IMG/VR virus record: IMGVR_UViG_3300020442_000592
Location: 1-35,553 of that record
DNA: 35,553 nucleotides
Direction: 5' to 3' (one strand)
From: a virus
The notes under the pieces are model-generated. The model saw nothing but the letters and a program-made list of their open reading frames with translations. It did no database searches and was not told the DNA's origin. Positions within the stretch are counted from its first letter, which is position 1; every line of letters begins with the position of its first letter. Below, piece after piece: positions 29,014 through 32,407 of the stretch. The position numbers and the translations under genes are program-made.

Positions 29014-30215
29014 TGGCAAACGTAACTCAACTAAAACACTTAGAGCATATAGAAGATGAGATGCTGAACTACGGTGTCCGAGGATGTGATGCCGCTGTCT
29101 CTGCCATGCAAGAGTTACTCAGAATGTTGGGTAAAGATGGCACCTCCTTCATGCAGACAAAGTGGGATGGCGCACCTTCCGTTGTCTGTGGCATGGATCC
29201 TCTTGCCAAAATCTTTTTTGTTGGCACTAAGTCTGTGTTTGCTAAGACTGAACCTAAATTATGTTTCAGTGATGCTGACGTGGACAGGTGGTACAACGGT
29301 GATCTTGCTGTAAAGTTAAAAGCATGTCTTAAATATTTTCCAGCACTCAAGATAGATGGAGTTGTGCAGGGAGATTTGTTGTTTACCGACAGCGATAAGA
29401 AAAAAGAGTATGTTGATGGCGAGCATCTTATAACCTTTCGTCCTAATACTATTACGTATGGTATACCTACAGATCATCCTATTGGTCAACAGGTAGACAG
29501 AGCTCATATTGGTATAGTATTTCACACTCATTACGTCGGAGATGATCTACCTACGATGCGTGCTCAAGCAGGAGCAAAAGTATCAAACCATAATGATGCT
29601 CCAGATGTAGCTGTTATTGAAAATGATACTCCTTATCATGACATCTCAGTAAGTCCTGCTGACATAGCAAGATTCGAGAGACACGTCAGCAAAATGGAAA
29701 GGATGTGTGCTATTTGTGGAAAATTCTTAGATGAACTGGTTGACAACATGGGCACCAAAGGTGATGCCAAGTTTCATGTTGCCTCATATCTCAAGCAGTT
29801 CTTCAATAATGAGATCAAGAACGCCAGGACTATTACTAACGTGCAGTCTACACTCAAAGCACTTGGTAAGTTCTATCACGAAAAGATGCAAAAGGAGATT
29901 GCCAAAGTTAAGTCTGCCAAATCACAAACCGCCAAGAGAGATTTGATGTTCAAGGGGCTTAAATACTTAGAAGATAATGAGAGAGAATTTGCTGCGATGC
30001 TTACCTTGTATAAAACTATGCAGGAAGCAAAGCAACTTGTTATTGATCAACTAGATCATCTTGAAACATTCAGAACATTTGTACAAACGGACAAAGGATA
30101 CCGTGTTACTAACCCTGAGGGGTATGTTCTTCATCACAATGGTGACATGATTAAGTTGGTAAACCGTATTGAGTTTTCGTATATCAATTTTACACTGTCA
30201 AAAGAATGGAAATAG
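29013..30215 (+). CDS. Ligase-like nucleotidyltransferase (DUF6267-type cyanophage protein)
   Basis: The 400-residue protein has a KWDG (Lys50-Gly53) in QTKWDGAPSVVCG, like motif I of DNA and RNA ligases (K-x-D-G). About 70 residues on is VVQGDLLFTD, in the place of the ligase motif III G-E-L. Near the C-terminus is EGYVLHHNGDMIKLVNR, resembling motifs IV and V of T4 RNA ligase 1 (EGYV... then K-x-K). A long helical insertion lies between them. Related cyanophage proteins are listed as DUF6267. If active, it would form a covalent Lys-nucleotide. It overlaps both neighbours. Confidence 0.6.
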   Translation: MANVTQLKHLEHIEDEMLNYGVRGCDAAVSAMQELLRMLGKDGTSFMQTKWDGAPSVVCGMDPLAKIFFVGTKSVFAKTEPKLCFSDADVDRWYNGDLAVKLKACLKYFPALKIDGVVQGDLLFTDSDKKKEYVDGEHLITFRPNTITYGIPTDHPIGQQVDRAHIGIVFHTHYVGDDLPTMRAQAGAKVSNHNDAPDVAVIENDTPYHDISVSPADIARFERHVSKMERMCAICGKFLDELVDNMGTKGDAKFHVASYLKQFFNNEIKNARTITNVQSTLKALGKFYHEKMQKEIAKVKSAKSQTAKRDLMFKGLKYLEDNEREFAAMLTLYKTMQEAKQLVIDQLDHLETFRTFVQTDKGYRVTNPEGYVLHHNGDMIKLVNRIEFSYINFTLSKEWK

Positions 30216-30772
30216 TAGATTACAAATGCGTCTACTTCACGTTTGGTAGGTTCCAACCTCCGACCACTGGTCATGAGGAGAACTTCAATGCGGTTGCTAA
30301 AAAAGCAGGTACTTGTGATTGGTATATCTATCTGTCTCAAACAACAGATAAGAAAGGTAATAACCCTCTACCACCTGAGCGCAAGTTACACTATGCCAAG
30401 AAGATGTTTCCCAAATTAGCAAACAATATCCGCAGTGGACCTAGAGATCCAGTGGGTATTCTTCAGGAGCTACAGGGTCAGGGATATGATGATGTTGTTA
30501 TGGTAGTGGGATCTGATCGTGTTGCCGCAATGCAATGGATCAAAAAGTATAACGGTAAGGATTTTGTATTCCGCAAGATGGATATTATATCCTCTGGTGA
30601 AAGAGATGCGGATGGAGACACCTTTGCTATCTCTGGCACTAAGATGAGACGTGCTGCTTCAGTTGGAAACTTTAAAGTATTTCGTCAGGGTATACCTCGT
30701 GCGCTTTCTGACAATGACACGCGGAAGTTGATGGAAGAAGTAAAGTCTAACCTTCCATCTAATTATAAATAA
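30206..30772 (+). CDS. Nucleotidyltransferase, NMN-adenylyltransferase-like
   Basis: The 188-residue protein has GRFQPPTTGH (14-23), the T/HxGH motif of the class that includes NMN and pantetheine-phosphate adenylyltransferases, then VVGSDR (100-105) and ISGTKMR (142-148), like the ISSTxxR nucleotide-binding motif. It would transfer AMP or CMP to a phosphorylated substrate; NMN is suggested by the GRFQPPTxGH wording but is unproven. The start overlaps the ligase-like gene by 10 bases, so they are co-translated. Confidence 0.8.
   Translation: MEIVDYKCVYFTFGRFQPPTTGHEENFNAVAKKAGTCDWYIYLSQTTDKKGNNPLPPERKLHYAKKMFPKLANNIRSGPRDPVGILQELQGQGYDDVVMVVGSDRVAAMQWIKKYNGKDFVFRKMDIISSGERDADGDTFAISGTKMRRAASVGNFKVFRQGIPRALSDNDTRKLMEEVKSNLPSNYK
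30764..30771 (+). promoter_or_regulatory. Late promoter TATAAATA before the modular repeat protein
   Basis: A perfect late box overlaps the stop codon of the adenylyltransferase-like gene and lies 24 bases before ATG 30795. No terminator separates the two transcription units. Confidence 0.75.
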
Positions 30773-30794
30773 AACATGGTCCAATTAGTTTTTG

Positions 30795-32246
30795 ATGAGT
30801 AGCTTCAGCGAGTTCCATAAAAAGGCACATGTGGCAAAACAAAATGTCACTCGTGACCAGTTTTATCGTAATGAAATATATAAGAAAGGTGAGTGGGTTC
30901 TGACCGAAGATGGAAAGGTCGGAAAAATTTTACGCCGTGGTCCCAACTATGTCCTGTGTCTAACGGCAGAAGAAACTACATTTAGATCATGGATCAAGGA
31001 CATCAAAGAGGTTTTTGAATTTGGTACGGACGCATATCGCGAGTACCTTCAGTCAATTACTCCAGGTGAAAAGAAGCAACCCTTCTCTAAAATCAAGGTA
31101 AAACAAACAATTCCTACCGACCCCAAAAAAGATAAGATGGAAAACAACGAGTACGTATTATCAGCGGTAAACGCTTTAAATCACAAAGAATCTTGGCGTT
31201 ACGATAAGTCTGCTAAGATGGCAAACAGAGATCCTAAAGGTCTTGGTGCTGAAGGTGTAGGTGGCGGCGACGCACCTGGCATGAAAATGGCAGAAGCACC
31301 TGGGACTGAGGGCAAACCAAAGATCAAGAAAGTCAAACACTCCTGTGCTACCAAGGTAGAGCACTCTGAGTGGGGCACTGGTAATTGCCTGAAAGAAATG
31401 CACACTCTTGATGAGCAAGGTAACATCACTCACTATGATGTTATGTTTGAGCATGGTCTTGAGCAAAACGTAGCAGTTCAATCTCTGAACGTTCTCGAAG
31501 AAGGTATGCATGAGCATGTCATTAACACTGACAAGAATGCTGAAATCATCGATGAGAAGAAGAAACTCGATCCAGTCGGTAAGGAAGACGGTGATGTAGA
31601 CAACGATGGTGATAAGGATTCATCTGATTCTTATCTGATGAACCGCCGTCGTGCTGTTGCTAAGGCAATGGGTAAGAAGATGAAGAAAGAGCATCATCAG
31701 AAAGATGCTGATGGTAAAGTTATTGAGCATGAAGGAGAGGAACTCGAAGAGAAGAAGGGTCTCTATGCCAATATTCATGCCAAGAGAAAGCGTGGTGAAG
31801 CACCTGCAAAACCAGGCGACGAGGACTATCCTGCTAAGGATGCCTTCAAGAAAGCAGCTAAGACTGCTAAGAAAGAAGAGGTAGACCTTGAAGAAGGTGA
31901 TGGTCTCTATGCCAATATCCATGCAAAGAGAAAGCGTGGTGAGAGAATGCGTAGCAAAGGTGACAAGGGAGCTCCTACTGCTCAGGACTTCAAAGACGCA
32001 GCGAAGACTGCTAAGAAAGAAGAGGTTACTACTGAAGGTAGTATGAAGCAGGCACGTAAGAATGTCGGAGCTTCTACTTGCTGGGACGGTTACAAGGCAA
32101 AAGGCACCAAGACTAAAAATGGTCGCCAAGTTCCTAACTGTGTCAAGGAAGATGAGGTTGAAGAGGGTTACGGTGCTAAGAAGAAAAAGATGAAGAAGGA
32201 AAACACCTTCTCCAACTGGCGTCAGGAGATCGCTGAAAAAAAGTAA
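30795..32246 (+). CDS. Modular repeat-containing phage protein
   Basis: The protein has 483 residues from ATG 30795 (a TTG at 30792 is less likely). A folded N-terminal part (FHKKAHVAKQNVTRDQFYRN, GEWVLTEDGKVGKILRRGPN) is followed by Gly/Lys/Glu-rich linkers joining short motifs: an EF-hand-like DGDVDNDGDKDSSD, followed by YLMNRRRAVAKAMGKK; two copies of GLYANIHAKRKRGE; and ASTCWDGYKAKGTKTKNGRQ. Such motifs recur in structural-region proteins of cyanophages. A virion or scaffold role is plausible. The gene ends in a sequence like the E. coli dnaX frameshift site. Confidence 0.75.
   Translation: MSSFSEFHKKAHVAKQNVTRDQFYRNEIYKKGEWVLTEDGKVGKILRRGPNYVLCLTAEETTFRSWIKDIKEVFEFGTDAYREYLQSITPGEKKQPFSKIKVKQTIPTDPKKDKMENNEYVLSAVNALNHKESWRYDKSAKMANRDPKGLGAEGVGGGDAPGMKMAEAPGTEGKPKIKKVKHSCATKVEHSEWGTGNCLKEMHTLDEQGNITHYDVMFEHGLEQNVAVQSLNVLEEGMHEHVINTDKNAEIIDEKKKLDPVGKEDGDVDNDGDKDSSDSYLMNRRRAVAKAMGKKMKKEHHQKDADGKVIEHEGEELEEKKGLYANIHAKRKRGEAPAKPGDEDYPAKDAFKKAAKTAKKEEVDLEEGDGLYANIHAKRKRGERMRSKGDKGAPTAQDFKDAAKTAKKEEVTTEGSMKQARKNVGASTCWDGYKAKGTKTKNGRQVPNCVKEDEVEEGYGAKKKKMKKENTFSNWRQEIAEKK
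31758..32027 (+). repeat. Two tandem 144-base repeat units inside the modular protein gene
   Basis: Units 31758-31883 and 31902-32027 are offset by exactly 144 bases. Each encodes GLYANIHAKRKRGE near its start and AAKTAKKEEV at its end. DNA identity is high at the ends and lower in the middle, consistent with an older in-frame duplication. Confidence 0.85.
32237..32243 (+). other. Candidate programmed -1 ribosomal frameshift site A AAA AAG
   Basis: The zero frame reads GAA AAA AAG and then stop TAA (32244-32246). The heptamer A AAA AAG is the same as in E. coli dnaX. An internal Shine-Dalgarno AGGAG (32224-32228) is 8 bases upstream. Downstream, GTCCC (32250-32254) with GGGAC (32287-32291) and GGTC (32260-32263) with GACC (32279-32282) make a stem 6 bases after the heptamer. 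A -1 shift would add 54 residues, reading through the frame at 32264-32407. Confidence 0.55.
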
Positions 32247-32263
32247 AAGGTCCCGTTGAGGTC

Positions 32264-32407
32264 ATGCCTGAACTGGAAGACCCCGAGGGACAGCGAAACA
32301 GCGATAAGAAAATGCCAAAAGCACCTAAGGAAAAGGTGAAGGAGGCTTGCAATCACACCGATAAAGGTGTAGAGTGTCCTGTACATGGAACTAAAGATTG
32401 CTCATAA
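32264..32407 (+). CDS. Small Cys/His protein, or -1 frameshift extension of the modular protein
   Basis: From ATG 32264 this frame gives 47 residues: a charged start (MPELEDPEGQRNSDKK), a Lys-rich linker, and CNHTDKGVECPVHGTKDC, with Cys-His pairs that look like a small metal-binding or recurring phage motif. The frame is open upstream back to the slippery site at 32237, so it is probably made as a C-terminal extension of the modular protein. It may also start independently, though no good binding site is seen at ATG 32264. The stop is immediately followed by the next ATG. Confidence 0.6.
   Translation: MPELEDPEGQRNSDKKMPKAPKEKVKEACNHTDKGVECPVHGTKDCS

Follow-up and report, generated by a model that had tools for sequence, protein, structure and literature searches.

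Results

Candidate recoding elements at the end of a modular cyanophage gene

The window analysed in this study, by which we refer to the whole stretch of 35,553 nucleotides constituting the IMG/VR virus record IMGVR_UViG_3300020442_000592, is a 35.5-kb virus record originating from a T4-like cyanophage of the Prochlorococcus type, whose nearest isolates, the Prochlorococcus phages P-HM1, P-HM2 and MED4-213, share about 70% nucleotide identity with it. Our investigation concerns the 3' end of a gene at 30795..32246 (this and the other window features given here with a coordinate range are located on the plus strand), which encodes a modular protein of 483 residues with the C-terminus WRQEIAEKK. 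The protein is of the T4-GC 534 type and matches the profile of PHROG 22379 (phrog_22379) with an E-value of 3e-197. We prefer the ATG at 30795 as its start, since homologues begin with M[KS]SFS, which makes the TTG at 30792 selected by the program listing open reading frames (ORFs) an unlikely initiation codon. In Pfam, neither this protein nor the C-terminal extension described below shows a match above the cut-off.

The gene terminates with the sequence GAA AAA AAG TAA, which includes seven consecutive A at 32236-32242. In this context, the slippery heptamer A_AAA_AAG (32237..32243, in the 0-frame register GAA AAA AAG) is immediately followed by the 0-frame stop codon TAA (32244..32246). 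The heptamer is preceded by the Shine-Dalgarno (SD)-like sequence AGGAG (32224..32228), located 8 nt upstream within the gene, and followed by a putative stimulatory stem-loop (32250..32291), identified by folding and covariation, whose first paired base is found 6 nt past the heptamer. With a predicted energy of -20.3 kcal/mol (z -2.5), this stem is matched in stability by 4 of 200 shuffled sequences. Of the 15 copies of A_AAA_AAG on the two strands of the window, only the one at 32237-32243 is both in register and positioned where a long ORF terminates. An earlier note on this DNA, made from the sequence alone, had recognized the heptamer next to the stop codon, the AGGAG and the stem at the same distances, and had interpreted them as the three known elements of a dnaX-type frameshift, all of which are present and, as detailed below, conserved across relatives.

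From the slip site onwards, no stop codon interrupts the -1 frame until it has added an extension of 54 codons (32243..32407, including the stop codon TAA at 32405-32407). Translation from ATG 30795 is thus predicted to yield 483 residues in the 0-frame and 537 residues upon a shift, in agreement with the two forms and the CNH...CPVHG...C motif proposed previously. The extension, to which we refer as the tail, matches the profile of PHROG 32143 (phrog_32143, E 9e-20) and corresponds to T4-GC 535 in P-HM1 and P-HM2. Its conserved stretch KKVxGPVE[VI]MP starts at the slip site, on the 5' side of the first ATG, and its end is formed by the Cys/His module C-NHTDKGVE-CPVHGTKD-C (32348..32401) following the pattern C-x8-C-PV-H-G-x3-C, in which C38, C47, H50 and C55 are invariant in our A4 set and which might constitute a zinc binding site. 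Structure prediction of the tail by AlphaFold resulted in no usable model (pLDDT 57, without secondary structure), and a sequence search of the PDB with the tail retrieved only designed repeat proteins (E 0.03).

Conservation within the clade of the window

The three nearest isolates P-HM1, P-HM2 and MED4-213 share GCTGAAAAAAAG with the window, and in each of them the tail follows in the -1 frame, the predicted junction peptide of P-HM1 being ...EKKVASSSVEIMPELDDPDGMK. In P-HM2, the 0-frame stop is found one codon later, with the start of the tail remaining at the slip. When the tail was used as query, 36 further contigs were identified, all of which show the -1 configuration. To avoid bias, we have also queried IMG/VR with nothing but the modular gene's N-terminal domain and obtained 80 loci, in 29 of which the contig ends before the gene does. 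The other 51 loci, whose gene end is intact, without exception contain the heptamer at the stop codon and a tail in the -1 frame, and locus L118 of this set carries the motif variant CEIHG. A DNA pattern describing the tail, in which the slip site was not imposed, detected 66 contigs, and a scan of all loci collected by these searches revealed no case among 161 occurrences of the tail motif where the heptamer was missing. The resulting set, including P-HM2, comprises 71 distinct junctions in 18 clusters below 80% identity, and the heptamer is invariant in all window-clade relatives having the tail. The earlier note had named relatives in which six or eight A fuse the two frames as a finding that would refute its interpretation. 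This refutation did not materialize, as the 51 loci, identified without use of the tail, all have exactly seven A followed by a tail in the -1 frame; fused forms were found in a related clade, with no heptamer at that junction.

Selection on the slip site, the coding frame and the flanking elements

In the 71 junctions, the sequence Glu-Lys-Lys is always encoded by GAA AAA AAG, compared to 2 of 39 other occurrences of the same tripeptide in the same ORFs and to an expected share of 12.6% calculated from their codon usage. Because the sequences share ancestry, we provide these numbers without formal probability. The column entropy of the 71 junctions peaks at the third positions of the 0-frame before the slip and, from the first base past the heptamer and thus before any ATG, at the third positions of the -1 frame. 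In the linker between the slip and the ATG, the ratio of non-synonymous to synonymous polymorphism (pN/pS) amounts to 0.47 in the -1 frame, to 0.74 in the 0-frame, where a stop codon is present in every sequence, and to 2.16 in the +1 frame. Both the entropy and the frame-specific ratios indicate that the open -1 frame is under selection at the protein level.

Similar constraints are apparent for the RNA. Compared to synonymous recodings of the same peptide, the region following the heptamer folds more stably, with a mean z of -2.3, and 28 of 30 representatives are found below -1. In the largest structural class, 26 cells of the stem have changed on both sides compared to 12 in shuffled alignments (with 0 of 500 shuffles reaching 26), and the fraction of paired cells has its maximum of 80.6% at slide 0 and does not exceed 59% when the arms are slid against each other. 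Other clades contain the same 5' arm with a different 3' pairing partner, and RNAalifold applied to the whole set detects hardly any consensus, probably owing to differences in the outer 3' arm among the clades.

At a distance of 6-13 nt upstream of the heptamer, 143 of 144 junctions contain an SD match of 4 nt or more, and the 0-frame stop follows the AAG directly in 140 junctions and after one codon in 4. In lineages whose peptide in the SD region lacks Lys/Gln-Glu (the FRS lineages), a CAGGAG is built with the rare codon AGG, whose share among the Arg codons of these genes is 6%, and in most of them the strength of the AGG-built SD corresponds to a z of about -4 to -5.

Predicted frameshift, fusion and separate reading frame in the wider family

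An equivalent arrangement is found at the same locus in Synechococcus phages, where GAA AAA AAG is followed by a stop codon and a -1 tail of the type KKV...VE[VI]MP in S-PM2 (p142/p143), Syn1 (163/164) and S-CAM3 (180/181), and likewise in S-CAM1, S-RIM32, S-H9-2, Sf-FR1, Sf-FP1 and Sf-CH11. Together with P-HM1, P-HM2 and MED4-213, these nine Kyanoviridae bring the number of isolates in which the cassette was read directly to 12. Most of their public records, including those of S-PM2, Syn1, P-HM1 and P-HM2, list the tail as an independent ORF, and that of Sf-FP1 does not list it at all. A pattern scan, which requires the heptamer, identified at least about 77 further distinct junctions. The modules at the end of the tail vary and include CPVHG, KKYERMVKHIKK and a weak match to DUF3008, with DUF6321 found in long tails of the clade of the window.

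The frameshift arrangement is not universal. ACG-2014h, Sf-CH1b, S-CAM4 and S-WAM2 (L268, L269, L375 and L376) contain no slip site and instead show an ATGA overlap of stop and start codon, with the tail as an ORF of its own that begins with MK[ST]F[KN]Q[LF]RE[ED]CG and that harbors the motif VE[VI][ML]P internally. No VE[VI]MP tail was detected in the region examined in P-SSM2, P-SSM4, S-RIM2, ACG-2014f, S-SSM6a, Sf-FS3 and S-ShM2. In a more distantly related clade (L216-L255), a CPVHG-like tail is fused in frame to the modular protein with no slip site at the junction, as a natural always-on version, which identifies the tail as a real C-terminal domain of the gene family.

Some members of this related clade contain a second -1 extension at an A_AAA_AAG (L220 4436, L231 4412, L232 4412, L233 1690 and L259 3018). 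Here the context GCA/GTA/GGA AAA AAG TAT TGA includes only six A, and the -1 frame extends into KKVLSQEEAPPGKK[YF]..., with a hairpin that is strong in most cases (e.g. GTCAGGAGG AGGCA CCTCCTGGC) and that starts 6-7 nt past the heptamer. With its six A and varying preceding bases, this second site suggests that it is the heptamer rather than the A run that is kept. As a side observation, another ORF ending with A_AAA_AAG in S-SSM6a (L500 2908, CYVG_00064/00065), which is followed by a -1 extension of 172 codons and weak downstream folding, could be a candidate of the same kind.

These relationships could be summarized in a model where a constant cassette consisting of the SD, A_AAA_AAG and the stem region encoding KKV...VE[VI]MP acts as a socket into which different C-terminal modules (Cys/His CPVHG, DUF6321, DUF3008-like and others) can be plugged on a shuffled modular protein, where frameshifting has at least two origins and is replaced in some lineages by in-frame fusion or by ATGA-coupled separate expression, and where lineages appear to tune the share of the module-bearing product. 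We consider the odds of this model to be even.

Genomic context and leads to function

The gene upstream of the modular gene (30206..30772) encodes a cytidylyltransferase of the T4-GC190 type and is a syntenic neighbour. The N-terminal domain of the modular protein matches the C-terminal part of this cyanophage cytidylyltransferase family (phrog_395), and family members with a domain homologous to the modular N-terminus are labelled T4-GC190 in several other phages. In the window (30206-32246) the short enzyme and the modular protein are separate, and several relatives contain one longer cytidylyltransferase gene. Public labels for the second part, such as 'cytitidyltransferase', 'NrdB' and 'ribonucleotide reductase alpha subunit', are probably transferred errors. 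The modular protein (30795-32246) and its relatives are built of shuffled motifs, including GLYANIHAKRKRGE, CWDGYKAKGTK..VPNC and DGDVDNDGDKD, which differ in number and order even among close relatives (299-499 codons), with the slip cassette remaining constant.

T4-GC190 was detected in virions of S-SM1 (PMC3037559), and the virion gene T4-GC537 is located just downstream in several phages. On the basis of this homology and vicinity, the two forms might be components of the virion or its assembly that are made in a set ratio, a proposal that we regard as equally likely to be right or wrong. The 0-frame C-terminus (32221-32243) conforms to [ILV][ASTN]E-KK in all 71 window-clade relatives, which resembles the consensus of the T4 gp21 prohead protease site, and the N-terminal MKSFSDF, an SFxxFR-like motif, is reminiscent of capsid targeting sequences. 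We have dropped a prohead protease site as general explanation, since the C-termini EETEKK and EIEEEKK of other Kyanoviridae deviate from this pattern, and retain it as a lead only.

Discussion

Mechanism and alternatives

The slip site, the SD, a stem with compensatory changes, a switch of the coding frame at the heptamer and a conservation that includes a large share of cyanomyoviruses together point to a programmed -1 ribosomal frameshift, functional and conserved, where the modular gene ends, to which interpretation, judged from sequence, we assign a probability of about 0.93. In the proposed mechanism, the internal SD and the stem-loop would pause ribosomes with tRNA-Lys on AAA AAG, whereupon a fraction of them would re-pair one base back on A_AAA_AAG to proceed in the -1 frame, and the remainder would stop at TAA. 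The process would thus generate the 483-residue protein and a presumably smaller or comparable amount of the 537-residue form containing the extra Cys/His module, and these two forms may play different roles, possibly in the virion. As a proxy for the probable host of the window, we have inspected Prochlorococcus MIT 9201, which among 38 tRNAs contains a single tRNA-Lys gene with the anticodon UUU and none with CUU. With tRNA-Lys UUU as the only tRNA-Lys, slippage on an AAG in the A-site can occur readily.

Certain observations weigh against this interpretation. In lineages that derive the SD from GAG/AAG codons or from Trp-Arg, its strength lies within the ordinary range of synonymous nulls. 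The ATGA relatives express their related VE[VI][ML]P tail from an ORF of its own, and fusion is therefore not the sole solution used in the Kyanoviridae. Finally, the pause elements could also assist RNA polymerase, and hairpins can promote its slippage. This latter point relates to a scenario in which the insertion of an extra A by the polymerase at the A7 run would yield a fraction of transcripts that contain the fusion in a single frame. The site is indeed a run of A, and a transcript with eight A would read into the tail. However, in all 71 tail-bearing relatives, which were found without imposing its length, the run contains exactly seven A and is never longer, it always ends in G and thereby constitutes A_AAA_AAG, both the internal SD and the distance of 6 nt to the stem make sense for ribosomes, and the second shift in the related clade proceeds from just six A with a similar spacer of 6-7 nt. 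We thus view transcriptional slippage as improbable and expect that it is the ribosome that slips.

In another scenario, the tail would be a separate small gene whose translation is re-initiated after TAA, with the heptamer being incidental. This corresponds to the annotation in P-HM1, P-HM2, S-PM2 and Syn1, it would employ a conserved in-frame ATG located about 20 nt past the slip, and it finds a precedent in the separate tail ORF of the ATGA relatives. It would leave the invariant heptamer, the stem and the rebuilt upstream SD unexplained, and it conflicts with the conservation of residues between the slip and the ATG in the -1 frame, with an SD before this ATG that is close to its synonymous null (mean z -0.5) and with the internal position of the VE[VI]MP motif in the ATGA relatives, which suggests that the conserved Met does not act as a start. 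Re-initiation is in our view even less probable than polymerase slippage. Homopolymers are prone to error, and the earlier note had listed both a sequencing error and a recent mutation of the A run as alternatives. With identical junctions in at least 12 isolates and more than 140 distinct junctions from independent assemblies, both are refuted by conservation and their likelihood is practically nil.

Relationship to known frameshifting systems

In E. coli dnaX (tau/gamma), the frameshift yields the shorter product, whereas in the unrelated gene described here the 0-frame stop directly follows the heptamer and the shift leads to the longer one. The two systems share a host with only tRNA-Lys UUU, tested here for a Prochlorococcus host, besides A_AAA_AAG, the upstream internal SD and a hairpin a few nucleotides downstream (PMC7282821). 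In frameshifting of the dnaX-type, tandem slippage of tRNA-Lys on A_AAA_AAG is stimulated by the upstream SD and the downstream hairpin (PMC7282821; PMC4066793).

In the tail assembly chaperone G/GT of phage lambda, too, a phage ORF undergoes a -1 shift close to its 3' terminus, which adds a C-terminal extension encoded in the next ORF (PMC5009743). Unlike in lambda, the present gene adjoins cytidylyltransferase and replication genes. Chaperones of the lambda type are encoded beside the tape measure gene, for which no match was found among the 20 window ORFs scanned. The neighbours examined comprise PHROGs of unknown function besides the cytidylyltransferase and the genes of replication. According to PMC10885494, which cites Vladimirov et al. 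2022, two chaperone forms are reported to be made without frameshifting in some T4-like phages. In the coat extensions of phages (T3/T7 gene 10, Lactobacillus A2, Listeria A118/A500), a -1 shift equally adds an optional C-terminal domain (PMC5009743). Those concern major virion proteins and often Ig-like domains, in contrast to the small Cys/His, DUF6321 and DUF3008-like modules found here, for which a role in the virion is putative. Bacterial insertion sequences use frameshifts to make transposase fusions, whereas the present locus contains no transposase. Common features are A_AAA_AAG and the downstream hairpin, accompanied in some cases by an SD located upstream (PMC4066793).

Implications

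Our search of the open-access literature on frameshifting in cyanophages has revealed nothing on this gene. While the mechanism is known from dnaX, the gene family and the conservation of frameshifting therein appear to be undescribed. Although cyanomyoviruses belong to the most studied marine viruses, a gene with two predicted products has been recorded as two ORFs in S-PM2, Syn1, P-HM1 and others. It would constitute a conserved frameshift of T4-like phages outside the tail chaperone gene. Its three natural states, the frameshift, the in-frame fusion and the coupled separate ORF, offer comparisons on why the virus wants a set ratio of the two forms, and the variable modules reveal what gets appended.
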